This document shows, in pieces, positions 30,088 to 52,556 of a DNA stretch of 64,000 bases. The notes under the pieces are model-generated. The model had not been told where the DNA came from. It saw only the letters and a list, made by a program, of their open reading frames with translations, and searched no databases. The DNA lies in NCBI RefSeq assembly GCF_009649845.1, contig NZ_WJIE01000001.1:1287054-1351053 (forward strand), read 5' to 3'. This DNA is from Polyangium spumosum. GTDB taxonomy: Bacteria > Myxococcota_A > Polyangia > Polyangiales > Polyangiaceae. The translations under genes were made by a program, and so were the position numbers. The stretch's first letter is position 1. Every line of letters begins with the position of its first letter.

Positions 30088-33048
<2,961 letters not shown>

Positions 33049-45015: not shown

Positions 45016-47658
45016 TCATCCGCCGATCCGCCCGCGCCTCCTCCGCATCCTCCAGCCCATCGCCGCCCCCGCGAGCACGAACCACCACGCGTCGCCCCTC
45101 GGCTTCGCCTCCAGGCTGCACCCGCAGCCGCCCTCCGCGCCGCTCGTGGCCCCGCCCTGGCCCCCCTGGCCACCCGCGCCGCCCATTCCACCCATTCCAC
45201 CGGCGCCCGCGCCGCCCATTCCACCCATTCCACCGGCGCCCGCGCCGCCCATTCCGCCCATTCCACCGGCGCCCGCGCCGCCCATTCCACCCATTCCACC
45301 GGCGCCGGCGCCGCCCATTCCACCCATTCCACCGGCGCCCGCGCCGCCCATTCCACCGGCGCCGCCCATTCCACCGGCGCCGCCCATTCCACCGGCGCCG
45401 CCCGATCCGGGCAGCTCGTCGAGGGGCGACGGCAGGATCTGCGCCCGCACCCGGATCGTCCCGAAGGGCGCCTCGTTCACCAATCGCTCGTAGCCGAGCA
45501 AGAACCGCCCCTCCGGCAGCGCCGCGAGCGTCGGATACCCGTGCAGCCCCGGATCCACCTCGGAGACCACCGCGGGGAAGTCGAGCACCTCCCCCGTCGT
45601 GGACAGGCGGACCCTCACGAGCCTGTTCATGCCATCCCGATACGCGATCACGAAATCCGTGCCGTCGAACGTCGCGCCGAGGCCCGCCGACGAGCAATCC
45701 GCGTTGCCCAGCCAGCCCCCCCATTGCTCCACGGCCATCACGTCGACATACCGATACCGGATCTTGCAAGACGACCCGTCCTCGTTCCAGACCACGAGAT
45801 ATCCCGCTTGATCCGTCGTGATGGCCGGCGGCGTCTCCTCCACGATGTTCGACGATCCTTGGTCGACCACCACCTGCGCGGCCGGGTTTCCATTCGCGTC
45901 CACCGGCAGCAGGTAGAGCCCCGTGCCGGCCCTCCGCGCGAGCATCCACCCGCTTCCATTCGACGCGACGCTCGGCGCAGGCGTATTCGCAGAGCCGAAG
46001 CCCGCGGGGAGCGCTACCGGGGCCGTGAGCGCGTTGCCCGACGCATCCACGCGCGCGACGTACTCCACCGAGGGGCTCCACGCCTGCCAGAAGAGCAGGA
46101 AATCCGAGCCCCCGAAGGAGAGCCGAGGTTGACTGCGCACCTCACCCGGAGGCGCGAACTCGACCGTCGCCGTCGCCGGCCCTCCCGCGGCCTCGTACCG
46201 ACGCAAGAACAGCCGCCTCGCCGGCGATCGCACCGTCGCGACGAGGAAGCTCGTGTCCGTCGCGGCGACGTCGCCGAAGAACTCGGCATTCGCGTCCGCC
46301 AGCGCGACCTCGATTCCCAGAGGATCCAGGACCTCGCCCGTCGCGTCGATCCTCGTCCCGATCGCGTTCTGCACGTACGAAAATGACGTGCCTCGATCGA
46401 TCCATCGATCCTCGTTCCAGCCGACGAACGAGACGTACCCGGCCGTCGCCGAGCGCGCGTTCCGCTGGCGCGCGGCCGCGTACGAGACCGCGAACGGGAG
46501 GGGCGCGATCGGCTCGAGGCTCGCGTCGACGAAGTGCGCGAAGATATCGTTGCCGTCCACCGGGCGCGGCTTCAGATCGAAGACCACGAGGGCCCCGCCC
46601 GGCTGCACCCCGAGCGCGATCGACCTCGAGTCCTTCTTCCCCGTCACGTTGGGCAAGGTCTGCACCGCGGAGGGCGTTCCATCCGCCGCGATCGTCGCCG
46701 TGACGAGCCCGGATCCGCTGGTCGGCCCGAAACTCGAGGCGAGCAGGAACGACCCGTTCGGCCCGGGCGCGATGGCGATCTGCCGCTGGTTGGTCGACGA
46801 CGCGCCGTCAGCGTCGGCCGCGACGAGCACGCCCGCCGGATCGAGCGAGACCTTGTCGCCATCGACGCGCATGCCGCGGATGCCCAGAGCGAACCACGCG
46901 AGGTACGAGATCCCATTCTGGGCCGAGAGCGCGAAGGCATCGGACGGGTTGACGTTCGACACCAGGGTCGCCCCGGAAGCGTCGGGCACGCCCGCCGTCG
47001 TGACGTGCGAGAGCAGGATGGAGCCGCCGCTGCCCCGCGCGACGACGTAGCGGGTGCCATCGAAGGCGACACGCGCGGACGCGCCGGAGCCCACGGGGAT
47101 CCCCATGGGATCGAGCACCTGGGAGGAGAATCGTGTCGCTTCGACCAGGCTGCCGGTGTCCCAGGCGATCAAGCATTCGGCGCCGCTCGACGTGATGCTC
47201 GTGCGGTTCTGCGCGACAGAGCTTGGCTTCACGGGCACGGGAGGCGAGGCCAGGGCGAGGGAGGCGCCGCTGTCGTCGAGCGTCGCGACGACGACCTGAT
47301 TGGTGTACGAGCCCGACACGGGGAGCCTCTGGCTCCAGACGACCGTGGGCTTGCCGTCGCAGAGCGCGATCTGCGGAGACTCGCTGTACCCGGACTCGCC
47401 GAGCACGAAAGCCGGCCGATCGAGGACCTCGCCGTTCACGTCGATACGCGCCGCGAGGATCCGGTCGGGCACGGAACTCTGGCTTTCGTGCCAGACGACG
47501 ATGTGATGCGCTCCGGTCCAGACGACCGCGGGGCGCGATTGCGTCCCCATCGCGGGCCGCTGCACGTCGGGCAAGGTGCCGAGATCCGCGGACGCGAGGC
47601 CCGGCGCGAGGAGAGTGAAGCCAAAAAGAATACTCGATCGAGGGAGAAGCGTCTTCAT
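45016..47658 (-). CDS. Surface protein with MYXO-CTERM-like sorting signal
   Basis: 880 aa from ATG 47658; a signal peptide (SSILFGFTLLAPGLASA) is followed by a long beta-rich region of repeated ~50-60-residue units of the ARIDVNGEVLDRPAFVLGE, TRIDATGEVLDPLGIEVA and RLSTTGEVLDFPAVV type, resembling propeller blades (GTRYVVARG, GSDFLLFWQ, GTDFVIAYRD). A Gly/Ala/Met linker follows, then the C-terminus GGCGCSLE, a hydrophobic helix WWFVLAGAAMGW and RMRRRRGR. That Cys-Cys, membrane helix, Arg cluster is a MYXO-CTERM signal, which predicts cleavage and outer-surface anchoring. Function unknown; adhesion or binding likely. Confidence 0.83.
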   Translation of the reverse strand: MKTLLPRSSILFGFTLLAPGLASADLGTLPDVQRPAMGTQSRPAVVWTGAHHIVVWHESQSSVPDRILAARIDVNGEVLDRPAFVLGESGYSESPQIALCDGKPTVVWSQRLPVSGSYTNQVVVATLDDSGASLALASPPVPVKPSSVAQNRTSITSSGAECLIAWDTGSLVEATRFSSQVLDPMGIPVGSGASARVAFDGTRYVVARGSGGSILLSHVTTAGVPDASGATLVSNVNPSDAFALSAQNGISYLAWFALGIRGMRVDGDKVSLDPAGVLVAADADGASSTNQRQIAIAPGPNGSFLLASSFGPTSGSGLVTATIAADGTPSAVQTLPNVTGKKDSRSIALGVQPGGALVVFDLKPRPVDGNDIFAHFVDASLEPIAPLPFAVSYAAARQRNARSATAGYVSFVGWNEDRWIDRGTSFSYVQNAIGTRIDATGEVLDPLGIEVALADANAEFFGDVAATDTSFLVATVRSPARRLFLRRYEAAGGPATATVEFAPPGEVRSQPRLSFGGSDFLLFWQAWSPSVEYVARVDASGNALTAPVALPAGFGSANTPAPSVASNGSGWMLARRAGTGLYLLPVDANGNPAAQVVVDQGSSNIVEETPPAITTDQAGYLVVWNEDGSSCKIRYRYVDVMAVEQWGGWLGNADCSSAGLGATFDGTDFVIAYRDGMNRLVRVRLSTTGEVLDFPAVVSEVDPGLHGYPTLAALPEGRFLLGYERLVNEAPFGTIRVRAQILPSPLDELPGSGGAGGMGGAGGMGGAGGMGGAGAGGMGGMGGAGAGGMGGMGGAGAGGMGGMGGAGAGGMGGMGGAGAGGMGGMGGAGGQGGQGGATSGAEGGCGCSLEAKPRGDAWWFVLAGAAMGWRMRRRRGRIGG
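45179..45412 (-). repeat. Coding minisatellite of 33-bp and 18-bp units
   Basis: On the + strand CCCATTCCACC and GGCGCCCGCGCC alternate; 33-bp units encode the 11-residue GAGAGGMGGMG, and 18-bp units at one end encode GGMGGA. They make the flexible linker before the sorting signal. All unit lengths are multiples of 3, so copy changes keep the frame. Confidence 0.8.
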
Positions 47659-47693: not shown

Positions 47694-48551
47694 TCAACCG
47701 CCAATCCCCGCCCGCCCCAGGATCGCCCCGAGATCCTCCCCGTGACTCGCGCGCGCGCCGAGGGATTCGAGCAGCGCGACCTCGTGCGCCGCGGGCGCGC
47801 CTGGGCCCGTCATCATGTGCACCTGCATTCCGAGCGCGAGCGGCAGCGCGAGGTCGAGCTCGTAGATGTCGCCGCAGACGAGCACCTCCTCCGGCGTGAC
47901 GCCCGTCTTTTGCAGGATACGCGCGAGCGTCTCGTAATAACGACCGCGCCGCGCATACACCGGGCGCTCGAGGCCCGCGAGCCGGATCTCCGCGGGGACA
48001 CGCGAGAATCGCTCGTCGGTCGATTCGGGCTCGGCCACCACGTACTTGCGCGCGTCGCCGTGCACCTCGATCCGCGAGAGCCCCTCCGGTCCCAGCGTCC
48101 GGAGTTTTTTTAATGCCGCCTCCGTCCGCGCATTCGTCACCACGAACGTCGGCAGCCCCGACGCGGCGAGGGCCTCGAGCACCTCCTTCGCGCGTGGTCG
48201 AAATGCGGTCCATGTGCGCTCGTAGGCGAGGTGATACAGCGCGGTGAGCACGGCCGTGCGGACCTCCTGGCTGCGGAGCACGCCACGCGCCTCGAAGAGG
48301 GCCTGCGCGACGGTCGTCGCGCGGATGTACGGATCGGCCCCCGCGGGCGCGACGATACGGCCCTCGAACATCCAGCCGTATCGGCCGGGGTGTTTCGTGA
48401 TCTCCGCCTGCCGCTCCTCCCAGCCGGCGAGGTCCTCGCGGCCGAGGACGTCGAAGACGGCGGAGCGGTACGTTTCCACGAAGGGCGCGGCCTCGCGCTC
48501 GACGTCCGTGAAGGTGCCGTCGAAATCGAGGACGATACATCGAACGGGCAT
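47694..48551 (-). CDS. HAD-superfamily phosphohydrolase
   Basis: 285 aa from ATG 48551. Motif I VLDFDGTFTD (two Asp), motif II Thr in VVTNART, a motif III Lys in EAALKKLRTL, and motif IV CGDIYELDLALPLALG are all present; the cap is helical. The family removes phosphate from small molecules; the substrate is unknown. Fourteen bp separate it from the upstream phosphofructokinase-like gene on the same strand, so the pair may form a sugar-phosphate pathway step. AGG-rich sequence before the ATG fits a ribosome site. Confidence 0.85.
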   Translation of the reverse strand: MPVRCIVLDFDGTFTDVEREAAPFVETYRSAVFDVLGREDLAGWEERQAEITKHPGRYGWMFEGRIVAPAGADPYIRATTVAQALFEARGVLRSQEVRTAVLTALYHLAYERTWTAFRPRAKEVLEALAASGLPTFVVTNARTEAALKKLRTLGPEGLSRIEVHGDARKYVVAEPESTDERFSRVPAEIRLAGLERPVYARRGRYYETLARILQKTGVTPEEVLVCGDIYELDLALPLALGMQVHMMTGPGAPAAHEVALLESLGARASHGEDLGAILGRAGIGG

Positions 48552-48565
48552 GGGAGAACCTCGCT

Positions 48566-49738
48566 TCAAAGGCTGTTCTTTTCGCTGGTGAAATGGTCCC
48601 GGATCCACGTGGAGAAGCCCGGGATCTGGAACCGCGAGAGCAGCGGCAAGAACGCGCGCTCCACGCGGTCCTCCCGCGTGACGAGATGAAATGGGCGCAC
48701 GCCGACGTCGTTCGACGCGAGCACGAAGGGCATGATCTCCGTCTGCCCCTCCTCGAACGCGTCGAAGAGCAAGGACGCCTTGAGGTACGCCGCCGAGACC
48801 TCCAGGAACGCGGGCCGCACGCCGCGCAGATAACGGCTGAACGGCTCGGCGATGACGCGCTTCTGCGCCGAATCCGCGAGCCCCGCCGCCGCGAGCTGCC
48901 GGCGCAGGAACTCGCTCGCGCTCTCGCCCGGCGCCTCCTTCGCCCTCCGCTCGCGCTCGTAGCCCTCGGCGACCACGACGAGCGCGTAATCGGCCCGCGA
49001 CAGGGCCTCGGCCGTCTCGCGCAGCACGGCCTCCGGGAACTGGAAGAAGGGCAGCACGATGAGGTGCGCGCGCGCCGCGACCCCGCAATGCAGCGCGTGC
49101 CGGCCGCTGCGGTTGCCCATCATCTCGAGCAGGTAGATCCGCTTGTGCGTGTAGGCGTCCTCGTAGAGCCCACGCGCGATCGTCGCGCCCGCCTCGACGC
49201 CCGAGAGGAAGCCGATCGCGCGATCCCCGGCGAGATCGTTGTCGATCGAGACGTTCACGAAGCCCGCGGGCAGGCGCGGGCTCATCTCGGGGAGCAGCGC
49301 GCGCAGGCCCTCGAACGTGCCATTGCCGCCGACGCCGACGACGTGCGAAAACCCCTGGACGCGCAGCGTCTCGGCGGCCGCGCGGCGCTTGTCCTCGTCG
49401 TGGAAGCCGAGGTAACGCTCGCTGCGGAAGTCGCTGCCGGCGTCGAGCACGCGGCGGCCCATGCTGCGCGCGGGGATGCCCTTGGCGAGCAGGGCGTAGC
49501 GTTCACGACGGCTCACGATGAGGCGCTCGAAGCGCGGATCCCCCGTCGCATCGGGCGTGAGCGAGCGGAAGCCCTCGGTCGCGGCCCAGACCTCGTAGCC
49601 GCGGCGTGACGCCTCCTCGGTGAGCGCGACCGCGACCGACGCGTAGCCCGGCGCGTTGCCCCCGTCGAAGACGAGCAGCAGGCGCCGCTCGGACGGCGGC
49701 ATCGCGGCGGGGGTCCCGAACTCCACGAGGTTCGTCAT
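48566..49738 (-). CDS. Divergent phosphofructokinase-like protein
   Basis: 390 aa from ATG 49738. The PfkA fold is seen in LLLVFDGGNAPGYASV, GVGGNGTFEGLRALLP, VSIDNDLAG and LLEMMGNRSGRHALHCGVAA. Two usual active-site residues differ: the GGDG(S/T) motif is GGNGT (metal-binding Asp to Asn), and the substrate Arg of the MGR motif is Asn (MMGNRSG). The catalytic TIDND Asp is kept in SIDND. A true 6-phosphofructokinase is therefore uncertain; another sugar or a regulatory role is possible. It shares a unit with the HAD gene and starts 105 bp from the divergent PYP gene. Confidence 0.72.
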   Translation of the reverse strand: MTNLVEFGTPAAMPPSERRLLLVFDGGNAPGYASVAVALTEEASRRGYEVWAATEGFRSLTPDATGDPRFERLIVSRRERYALLAKGIPARSMGRRVLDAGSDFRSERYLGFHDEDKRRAAAETLRVQGFSHVVGVGGNGTFEGLRALLPEMSPRLPAGFVNVSIDNDLAGDRAIGFLSGVEAGATIARGLYEDAYTHKRIYLLEMMGNRSGRHALHCGVAARAHLIVLPFFQFPEAVLRETAEALSRADYALVVVAEGYERERRAKEAPGESASEFLRRQLAAAGLADSAQKRVIAEPFSRYLRGVRPAFLEVSAAYLKASLLFDAFEEGQTEIMPFVLASNDVGVRPFHLVTREDRVERAFLPLLSRFQIPGFSTWIRDHFTSEKNSL

Positions 49739-49842
49739 GCCCGAGGCGCGTACCACGAAGGGGGGGCGCGTTGGAAGATCGACCCAGGCCGGAGCACGCC
49801 GATCGCTGCGCGCGGGGCGCGATCCGTGTTAGGGTGCATGCC

Positions 49843-50214
49843 GTGTTCAGGAACTTCGAACAGGTCACCTCGCGGGATCTCTCCGGCATGTCGGCAGCCG
49901 AGTTCGATGGGCTGCACTTCGGCGCGATACGGCTCGATCGCCACGGCACGGTGAAGGCATACAACGACTGGGAGGCGGCGCTCGCGCGGCGCGACAAGGG
50001 CACCGTCCTCGGCAAAAACTTCTTCACGGACGTCGCGCCCTGCACCGACGTGGCCGCGTTCCGGGGCCGCCTCGATCGGCTGGCGCTGAGCGGGGACAAG
50101 TCCTACGTCTTCGATTTCGATTTCGAGTTCCCCTGGGGCAAACGCAAGGTCCGCATCCGATTCCTCGTCGAATCGGACGACGAGCGCTGGGTGTTCGTCA
50201 CGGACGTGACGTGA
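49843..50214 (+). CDS. pyp: Photoactive yellow protein homologue (PAS-fold)
   Basis: 123 aa from GTG 49843 (AGGGTG upstream; GTG 49834 is an alternative). Compared with the well-known 125-aa Halorhodospira PYP, the sequence runs in register with an offset of two: FDGLHFGAIRLD, Tyr40, Glu44, Arg50, then GKNFFTDVAPCTD with Cys67, matching Tyr42, Glu46, Arg52 and Cys69, which bind and tune the p-coumaryl chromophore. Thr50 of PYP is Ala here. The end DERWVFVTDVT matches SYWVFVKRV. A blue-light receptor role is therefore likely. No tyrosine ammonia-lyase or p-coumarate ligase gene is in the window. Divergent from the PFK-like gene. Confidence 0.85.
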   Translation: MFRNFEQVTSRDLSGMSAAEFDGLHFGAIRLDRHGTVKAYNDWEAALARRDKGTVLGKNFFTDVAPCTDVAAFRGRLDRLALSGDKSYVFDFDFEFPWGKRKVRIRFLVESDDERWVFVTDVT

Positions 50215-50295
50215 GTCCCCCTTCGTCACCGATGTGAGCCGAGCATCTAGGCTCGGGCGCGAGGGTCGGATATCCTGCCCGTGGAGGTGACGACC

Positions 50296-50871
50296 TTGAA
50301 CCGACGAATCTTCTTCTTGCCGCTTTTTGCCCTCGCCCTCGGCCTCGCCGGGTGCAGCGACGACGTGGGCTCCGAGGAGGACGCGCGCCGCGCCTACGTC
50401 GGCCTCGACAGGTCGATCGACAAGGCCATGCAGCTCGGCTTCCAGGGCTTCAACGCCGCGTCGAACGCGAACATCGACCCACAAATGACCAATGGTGACA
50501 GGGCGGGCACCCTCACCGTCAGCGGCAAGGTGGATCAGGGAGACTCCCCCAACAAAACGATGACACTGAACGAGGTGATGAAGGATTACTCCGACGACGG
50601 AGAAATCACCTACAACACCTCGGGCACGGCCCCGGTCATCGACCTGAAGCTCAACAACATCCCGAACGGCACCATCACGGGAAGGCTCGACGGCGCGTTC
50701 ACGATGTCGGGAGAGCTCGAGGGCAACGTGACCTTGAACCTCACGATCGACGGCGAACTCCAGCCCACGATGGCCGATCCGATGAAGGTCGAGCGCAAGC
50801 CGGGGACGACGAAGATCTCCGGGACGGCGACGAGTGATTACGGCACGTACGACGTCGACCTGACCCGCTGA
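50296..50871 (+). CDS. Lipoprotein of unknown function
   Basis: 191 aa from TTG 50296, chosen because GGAGG (50283-50287) is 8 bp upstream and the signal peptide NRRIFFLPLFALALGLAGC is then complete with lipobox GLAGC. An upstream GTG overlaps that ribosome site. The mature protein has acidic helical patches and then regular beta strands with Thr/Gly repeats (TLTVSGKVDQG, GTITGRLDGAFTMSGELEGNVTLNLTIDGEL, GTTKISGTATSDYGTYDVDLT), suggesting a beta-sandwich or beta-barrel-like fold. No family is recognised. Confidence 0.72.
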   Translation: MNRRIFFLPLFALALGLAGCSDDVGSEEDARRAYVGLDRSIDKAMQLGFQGFNAASNANIDPQMTNGDRAGTLTVSGKVDQGDSPNKTMTLNEVMKDYSDDGEITYNTSGTAPVIDLKLNNIPNGTITGRLDGAFTMSGELEGNVTLNLTIDGELQPTMADPMKVERKPGTTKISGTATSDYGTYDVDLTR

Positions 50872-50917: not shown

Positions 50918-51598
50918 GTGTATTCGCCTCGTTCGTTCGTCCTGCCCCTCGTCGCCGCGCTCGCCTCGGCCTGCGGCGCCTCCGCGCCGCCGCCCCCCGA
51001 ACCCGCGCCGATCTCCGTGGAGGTCGCGGGGGAGCCCCCGCCGCCGCCCGCGCCCGCGGAGGTCGCCGCGGAGGAGCCGCCCGCGCCCGAGCCCGCGCCC
51101 GCGCCGGAATCACCTCCCGCGACGCCTTCGCCGTGGCTCGCAGGGCCGACGAACCCGGGCCCGGGCGCGTTCGTGCTCGACGGCGGCCGGCTCGTCGTCA
51201 AGGAGCCCATCGAGTTCGAGCTCGCCAAGGAGACCCTCGCGCCTTCGAGCGGCCCGGCCGTCGATTACGTGACCGCGTTTCTCCAGGCCAAACCCGACAT
51301 CACGCTCCTGCGCGTCGAGGGGCACTCCGACAACCGGGGGAGCGGGGCGGCGAACCTCGCGCTCTCGGGCCAGCGCGCGTTCTCCTTCGCGCGGGCCCTC
51401 GTCGCGCGTGGCGTCGATTGCAGGCGCCTCTTGCCCGTGGGGTTCGGCGAGACGAAGCCCGTCGCCGACAACCGGACCGAGGAGGGGCGCAAGCAAAACC
51501 GCCGCATGGAGTTCGTCGTCGCCGCGCTCCGGGGCCGGCCCGTCGGGGGCATGCCGGTCGACGGCGGGGGCCGTATCGCGGGGGATCCCTGCCGGTAG
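50918..51598 (+). CDS. OmpA/Pal-like peptidoglycan-binding lipoprotein
   Basis: 226 aa from GTG 50918. Lipobox LASAC, then a ~65-residue Pro/Ala/Glu linker (PAPAEVAAEEPPAPEPAPAPE). The OmpA C-terminal domain (~105-215) has IEFELAKETLAPSSGPAVDYVTAFL, EGHSDNRGSGAANLALSGQRAFSFARALVARGV and GFGETKPVADNRTEEGRKQNRRMEFVV, the diaminopimelate-binding signature (Asp and Arg in the NRTEEGRxxNRR region). It links the outer membrane to peptidoglycan. The long linker suits reach across the periplasm. Confidence 0.88.
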   Translation: MYSPRSFVLPLVAALASACGASAPPPPEPAPISVEVAGEPPPPPAPAEVAAEEPPAPEPAPAPESPPATPSPWLAGPTNPGPGAFVLDGGRLVVKEPIEFELAKETLAPSSGPAVDYVTAFLQAKPDITLLRVEGHSDNRGSGAANLALSGQRAFSFARALVARGVDCRRLLPVGFGETKPVADNRTEEGRKQNRRMEFVVAALRGRPVGGMPVDGGGRIAGDPCR

Positions 51599-51728
51599 AG
51601 GACAACGGGCCTCACCTGCTGGCAAAAGGGTGATGCCTCGCCCCCTCGGTCCGGGGCCCGTCGCGTCATGGAATCGTGGGGTTGGGAGCTCCGCGTTCCG
51701 GGCATAAGGCTTGCTCGGGCCCGGCGCC

Positions 51729-52556
51729 ATGAACGAGACGATTCAAAAATACATCGACCTGGCCGTGCAGCTCGGCATGAGCGTGGGGCTCAAGATCCTC
51801 GGGGCGCTCGTCCTCTGGATCATCGGCCGGATCGTGATCCGCGCCGTGCTCGGGATCCTCGACCGGAGCCTGCGGACGCGGAAGATCGACGACACCGTCA
51901 GCAAGTATCTCGGCTCGGTGGCCGGCGTCCTCCTGAACATCCTGCTCCTCCTCTCGGTGCTGAGCGTCTTCGGCATCGAGACGACGACGTTCGCCGGCCT
52001 GCTCGCCGCGGCGGGCGTGGCGATCGGCGTCGCCTGGTCGGGCCTGCTCTCGAACCTCGCCTCGGGCGTCTTCATGATCGTGCTGCGGCCCTTCAAGGTC
52101 GGCGATTACGTGATCGCGGGCGGCATCGAGGGCACGGTGCAGGCCATCGGCCTCTTCGTCACGGCCATCGACACGCCCGACAACGTCCGGACCTTCGTGG
52201 GCAACGGCAAGATCTTCAGCGACACGATCAAGAACTTCTCGGAGAACCCCTACCGCCGCGTGGAGCTCGTCGCGCAGCTCTCGGGCCAGGCCGACGTGCA
52301 CAAGGTGATCGCGGTGCTGAAGGAGAAGCTCAAGGCGATCCCGAACGTCGCGAAGACCCCGGCGCCGGACGTCGAGGTGCTGACCTTCACCCTCGCCGGC
52401 CCCGTGCTCGCCGTGCGGCCTTATTGCCACACCGAGCATTACTGGGCGGTGTATTTCGCGACGAACCAGGTGATCAACGACGAGATCGGCAAGCTCGGCT
52501 TCCCCGCCCCGGCGAACCCGGTGCTCATCACCGAGCAGAAGCGCGCCGCCGCTTAA
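51729..52556 (+). CDS. MscS-family mechanosensitive channel
   Basis: 275 aa, the size of small MscS. Three N-terminal spans (SVGLKILGALVLWIIGRIVIRAVLGIL, YLGSVAGVLLNILLLLSVLSVFG, FAGLLAAAGVAIGVAWSGLLSNLASGVFMI, the last the pore helix), then the beta domain FKVGDYVIAGGIEGTVQAIGLFVTAIDTPDN and the C-terminal alpha/beta domain. ATG 51729 is preferred over an in-frame upstream start. It releases osmolytes on hypo-osmotic shock. Its stop overlaps the convergent gene by 4 bp. Confidence 0.9.
   Translation: MNETIQKYIDLAVQLGMSVGLKILGALVLWIIGRIVIRAVLGILDRSLRTRKIDDTVSKYLGSVAGVLLNILLLLSVLSVFGIETTTFAGLLAAAGVAIGVAWSGLLSNLASGVFMIVLRPFKVGDYVIAGGIEGTVQAIGLFVTAIDTPDNVRTFVGNGKIFSDTIKNFSENPYRRVELVAQLSGQADVHKVIAVLKEKLKAIPNVAKTPAPDVEVLTFTLAGPVLAVRPYCHTEHYWAVYFATNQVINDEIGKLGFPAPANPVLITEQKRAAA

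Follow-up and report, generated by a model that had tools for sequence, protein, structure and literature searches.

How does a photoactive yellow protein (PYP) obtain its chromophore in a genome where neither of the enzymes dedicated to supplying it is found? And has such a gene arrived recently, or is it an old one? These questions are raised by an open reading frame of 123 codons on the plus strand, at positions 49843..50214 of a 64,000-nucleotide stretch of Polyangium spumosum DNA; we call the whole stretch the window and the encoded protein the window PYP. The genome comprises 10.76 Mb in 61 contigs. In our reading, the window PYP is probably a p-coumarate-binding photosensor whose chromophore comes from outside the cell or through a general enzyme, and its gene is a long-standing resident of the genome. 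The argument is built from sequence comparison. It has to account for a divergent protein, for the missing enzymes and for the absence of the gene from close relatives.

PYP identity and the chromophore pocket

The frame is intact, open from a GTG at 49843 to the stop codon ending at 50214; a second candidate start, an in-frame GTG at 49834, can be read from the sequence. GC at third codon positions (GC3) is 0.88, against 0.63 and 0.43 at the corresponding positions of the two alternative frames. Six neighbouring genes have comparable GC3 values, 0.87-0.96. Overall GC is 0.645 for the PYP gene versus 0.696 for the window. Scanning 49500-50400 for promoters and terminators revealed none, although such a scan is little informative for the phylum Myxococcota.

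The protein is a single PAS-type domain, and its closest relatives in the PDB are PYPs. In phmmer searches the best match was Ppr-PYP of Rhodospirillum centenum (1mzu, E 7.6e-22), with Halorhodospira halophila PYP at E about 1e-21, and each of the 33 sequences with an E of 0.001 or below was a PYP or derived from one. The NCBIfam model photo_yellow (TIGR02373) matches with E 1.9e-29 and 102.3 bits. This lies below its cut-off of 143.05, so the protein is not filed as a TIGR02373 equivalog. The sole Pfam match, PAS_4, falls exactly at threshold; the available text of PMC9664959 describes the same outcome for most of the 30% of PYP homologues missed by Pfam PAS.

The predicted structure agrees. 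AlphaFold2, given 40 sequences, yields a model with a mean pLDDT of 91.6, and when this model was compared with the PDB by Foldseek the top 39 matches were PYPs or the PYP-derived FAST and nanoFAST proteins, with TM-scores to the query of 0.71-0.89. The first PAS domain that is not a PYP appears at rank 40 (TM 0.63). We therefore reject an ordinary PAS domain, given this rank and the 33 of 33 PDB sequence matches. Homology to PYP and Cys69, by which PMC9664959 defines the family, are both found here, as are the hydrogen-bonding pair Tyr42/Glu46 and the predicted PYP fold. On sequence grounds, then, the window gene encodes a genuine single-domain member of the PYP family. An earlier note on this DNA had proposed just that, a free-standing PYP homologue in a myxobacterium, and was right on each count.

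Are the residues of the photocycle in place? The alignment confirms the four equivalences proposed in that note. Tyr40 (codon 49960..49962), Glu44 (49972..49974), Arg50 (49990..49992) and Cys67 (50041..50043), all on the plus strand, correspond to H. halophila Tyr42, Glu46, Arg52 and Cys69. Of these, Glu46 is the proton donor in PYP and Cys69 carries the chromophore thioester; Cys67 is the only cysteine in the window PYP. The claim of a gapless register holds through H. halophila residue 107, and one gap lies beyond it. Among 136 PYP domains, all scoring 55 bits or more against a profile, a selection that favours conserved sites, Tyr42/Glu46/Arg52/Cys69 is the commonest combination (66/136); the consensus at position 52 in a larger published set is Leu, according to the accessible part of PMC12826048. 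Position 50 is Ala, as had been pointed out, yet there is nothing unusual about it: Ala is the commonest residue there in our set (57/136) and the family consensus given in the same portion of PMC12826048, where four characterised Ala50 PYPs are reported to absorb between 435 and 465 nm.

In H. halophila numbering, the window PYP also keeps Phe63 and Val105 and, besides Tyr42, Glu46 and Cys69, the pocket residues Ile31, Phe62, Val66, Ala67, Pro68, Phe92, Phe96 and Trp119. The pocket is retained although the protein as a whole shares 29-42% identity with the remaining 39 rows of our alignment A2, which implies constraint. Other sites have changed. Leu replaces Phe79, as in just 3 of the 136 domains. 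Trp98-Gly-Lys100 (codons 50134..50142, plus strand) occupies the positions of H. halophila Met100 to Pro102, and in the residue table of the 136 homologues the window PYP alone has Trp for Met100 or Lys for Pro102. Both residues sit in the '100s loop', which holds Met100 in H. halophila PYP.

Distribution and loss within the genus

PYPs in Myxococcota, and genomes with several PYPs, are already in print (PMC9664959, PMC12826048). In the parts of these sources available to us, Myxococcota have the highest share of PYP-bearing genomes, which gives no support to a PYP being unusual in a myxobacterium, and 16% of genomes have more than one. A PYP of Stigmatella aurantiaca has been published (available text of PMC11832031). 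We found no account of PYP loss scars, of the window PYP or of photochemistry in a myxobacterial PYP in the literature searched, which included few subscription papers.

According to Xing et al. (PMC9664959, available text), TIGR02373 recovers about a fifth of PYP homologues. Within the order, 62 of 183 genomes contain a match to it with E no higher than 0.001. In 46 of these the match reaches 1e-15; the other 16 matches are weak (best E about 8.7e-4 to 1.5e-6) and may be other PAS domains. A single one of the 183 genomes passes the cut-off. As a control for specificity, 14 further genomes yielded one match, in Synechococcus elongatus, under the cut-off. A sample of the phylum gave matches in 48 of 377 genomes, the best other than the window PYP itself at 51% over 103 residues, and the best score other than its own was 82 bits versus 273. 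A collection of genome contigs, from which very near genomes were possibly excluded, held 51 loci, all at 33-48% identity except for one 36-residue match at 58%. Five of 72,556 plasmid records match, all at less than 60% identity, the best listed at 44%.

We found 137 PYP domains and dropped one that scored below 55 bits. The remaining 136 rows, over 119 columns, were placed in a tree by a quick method. The 51 genome-contig loci supplied 48 rows (the rest were short or identical to another row), 39 of which are in alignment A2; order matches below 58 bits were left out unless they fell within a fetched stretch, and the phylum sample contributed its better matches only. The earlier note had called for such a tree. 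The tree gives the window PYP no supported place: the protein has the longest end branch (1.08), and the rows closest to it by path are from Acidobacteriota.

Close relatives tell us more about the gene's age. None of five sampled congeners (G148-G152) has an intact window PYP gene, and all five have the flanking block. In G151, a remnant between the phosphofructokinase-like and lipoprotein genes matches window 50129-50172 (46 columns, 87%, E 5.6e-9), which belongs to the final portion of the PYP gene. G152 still shows the region upstream of the gene and the gene's beginning (window 49757-49854, 79%, E 4.9e-16). After these comes a stretch of 27 columns that matches that same portion at 81%, with an E of 0.22 that is weak if taken alone. 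For each congener separately, we asked which one deletion from the window sequence fits best, trying lengths of 0 and from 180 bp upwards in steps of 3. Both fits gave 270 bp, with starts three bases apart: about this much is absent at the scar, 49858..50127 in G151 and, as the best fit, 49855-50124 in G152. The two genomes also align to each other across the deletion junction.

The simplest account of these remnants is one deletion in the shared ancestor of G151 and G152. If so, the PYP gene stood here in their common ancestor with P. spumosum, and the window PYP is a relict rather than a recent arrival, since the same deletion of about 270 bp best explains both remnants. The other three congeners, G148, G149 and G150, carry other DNA at the PYP site (about 0.6, 8.3 and 2.3 kb), and we infer that they too have lost the gene. 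The spacer between the phosphofructokinase-like and lipoprotein genes (window 49757-50280) ranges from about 0.25 to 8.3 kb across the five, which suggests a site prone to deletion and insertion.

Could P. spumosum itself be losing the gene? In that case it would have little or no expression, and any function would have passed to a second PYP. Absence from five of five sampled congeners, two of them with a shared deletion, together with the longest end branch, could indicate relaxed selection. A second PYP homologue does exist. It has 175 amino acids (G000:C2:801909-802199; ORF L099:6748-7275, minus strand), is 43% identical to the window PYP, and, as listed, its ORF shares four bases with the end of a DUF4388 gene. 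It is present in four of the five congeners and forms a genus clade with their copies (SH-aLRT 98); the exception is G151, in whose genome the TIGR02373 search detected no PYP at all. Like the window PYP it keeps Tyr42, Glu46 and Cys69. Unlike it, however, the second PYP has Ser50, Leu52 and His100, and its match to the PYP model ends at position 107 of 124. Because the tuning sites differ and the model match stops at 107, it is no obvious substitute. The intact frame, native GC3 and preserved pocket of the window PYP also speak against decay. We regard ongoing loss as doubtful, but worth bearing in mind.

Chromophore supply

If the window PYP is a functioning photosensor, where does its chromophore come from? 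The earlier note had suggested a genome search for tyrosine ammonia-lyase (TAL) and p-coumarate:CoA ligase (pCL), and homology finds neither. P. spumosum has one aromatic amino acid lyase, the histidine ammonia-lyase HutH (NCBIfam 675 bits, cut-off 539.15), which carries a Ser-His motif. At that site the lyases adjoining PYP in six loci (L009, L022, L025, L027, L028 and L029) read His-Leu; in five more loci with a PYP-adjacent lyase, the pattern used found no motif. We take this site to set substrate choice. A TAL elsewhere in the P. spumosum genome was rejected, its sole candidate being HutH. Each of the five congeners has a Ser-His lyase, and G151 has a second lyase in addition.

For pCL we built a model from an alignment of 15 pyp-adjacent ligases. 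All 128 candidates in the P. spumosum genome were scored and none is a pyp-type pCL; the best reaches 64.4 bits over part of the model. In a control with ten PYP-bearing genomes, the four that had supplied rows of the alignment scored 436-514 bits, and every other match was at or below 121.5. The remaining six had nothing above 67 bits, so the lack of a pCL is not peculiar to P. spumosum. Across the order, with at most nine candidates scored per genome, the best score was 171.5 bits and 27 of 183 genomes had a match with E no higher than 1e-20. Two of these matching CoA-ligase-like genes lie about 1.7 kb from an aromatic lyase (G178:C77 and G179:C65). These gene pairs, as we understand such loci, resemble flexirubin or aryl-polyene clusters, and are a possible source of p-coumarate in other PYP-bearing members of the order.

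Pyp operons without these dedicated enzymes are also common in published data. As far as the available text of PMC12826048 goes, 5% of predicted pyp operons include a TAL and 32% a pCL, most operons have neither, and the authors suggest chromophore uptake or broad-range enzymes. A general CoA ligase or lyase may do the job in P. spumosum; this is compatible with the homology result. The failure to find either dedicated enzyme in this genome leads us to favour an outside or general-enzyme source. The chromophore would probably be a plant-derived hydroxycinnamate, or else the product of a general enzyme, and a general acyl-CoA ligase would activate it. Once bound to p-coumarate, the window PYP would absorb blue light, partly unfold and signal to a partner.

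The missing TAL and pyp-type pCL could also mean another ligand, or none. A protein of PYP fold might have drifted from light sensing to the binding of a different ligand, or might now act through Cys67 without a chromophore or by redox chemistry. The longest end branch among the 136 rows, the unique Trp and Lys in the 100s loop and the rare Leu79 all fit such drift. The chromophore-contact residues that we checked are intact, however. Moreover, the PYPs for which a redox role has been proposed, some of those in methylobacteria, have lost Cys69 and gained two cysteines (PMC9664959, in the part available), whereas the window PYP has its single Cys67. We think drift of this kind unlikely.

The photosensor reading can be extended further, as a long shot. 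The PYPs of the genus, lacking a dedicated chromophore supply, might be armed only by plant hydroxycinnamates and so report light and plant litter together, with the window PYP, marked by Trp100 and Lys102, as an orphan lineage with a photocycle of its own.

Neighbouring genes and known systems

Do the neighbours give the gene a role? Divergent from it on the minus strand is a phosphofructokinase-like gene (48566..49756; Pfam PFK, 116.5 bits), the two starts lying 86 bp apart. The syntenic block also includes a HAD-type hydrolase (47694..48530, minus strand), a putative lipoprotein identified by eye and without a Pfam or NCBIfam match (50281..50871), an OmpA-domain protein (50918..51598) and an MscS-type mechanosensitive channel (51711..52556), the last three on the plus strand and all but the lipoprotein assigned by Pfam. 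Pfam and NCBIfam found no sensor kinase, GGDEF protein, chemoreceptor, TAL or pCL among the five nearest genes, in keeping with the earlier remark that no gene for chromophore synthesis lies nearby.

All five congeners retain the block, its aligned pieces being 77-88% identical in DNA sequence, with only the end of the lipoprotein gene found in G148. The phosphofructokinase-like protein is 92-93% identical in the five, none of which has the window PYP. Its pairing with the PYP gene therefore looks incidental, and it is probably a bystander. A search of 39 genomes gave ten close matches to it outside the window, at 70-93% identity, and none of them adjoins a PYP match. A light input beside a sugar-kinase-like gene had been singled out as unusual, but the link is not conserved, the pair being kept in none of the five congeners; nor is there support for the idea that the pair serves to put the phosphofructokinase-like gene under light control. 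In place of the GGDGS/T of ordinary phosphofructokinases, the phosphofructokinase-like protein has GGNGT, and it is 70-75% identical in five other genomes of the order Polyangiales. Further off in the window, near-perfect tandem repeats with 33-bp and 18-bp units (45173-45403) lie in a minus-strand ORF of 1174 amino acids and give it a run rich in Gly, Met and Ala close to its C-terminus, and a 156-bp tandem repeat is present in 3.6 copies with 72% matches (31630-32185).

A recent horizontal gain of the PYP gene beside the phosphofructokinase-like gene, which it would regulate by light, has in its favour the closely spaced divergent starts, the lack of a close relative in the order and phylum samples and the Acidobacteriota rows nearest in the tree, but is very improbable given the shared deletion that places the gene in an ancestor of G151 and G152, its native GC3 and a neighbour so well conserved without it.

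Read as an old resident and a photosensor, the window PYP is a divergent addition to the PYPs of the phylum from which the family is presumed to stem. Within a single genus it clearly exemplifies the loss of a PYP, and the scar left behind lends itself to mapping on the species tree. It is also a case for asking how PYPs obtain a chromophore in genomes without a detected TAL or pyp-type ligase. If external p-coumarate suffices, such a PYP would sense light only when plant material is present.

How does it compare with the PYPs already known? The clade A PYPs of Myxococcota and Pseudomonadota, as presented in the available text of Xing et al. (2022, PMC9664959), have the conserved pocket in common with the window PYP, which itself falls in no supported group of our tree. 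H. halophila has both TAL and pCL in its own pyp operon (PMC12826048, available part), whereas neither was found in the P. spumosum genome. In predicted fold and length the window PYP is like H. halophila PYP (for example PDB 2phy and 2qj7) and R. centenum Ppr-PYP, and it shares with them Tyr42, Glu46, Arg52, Cys69, Trp119 and the VAPCT motif. It is about 40% identical to these proteins and differs from them by Ala50, Leu79, Trp100 and Lys102.
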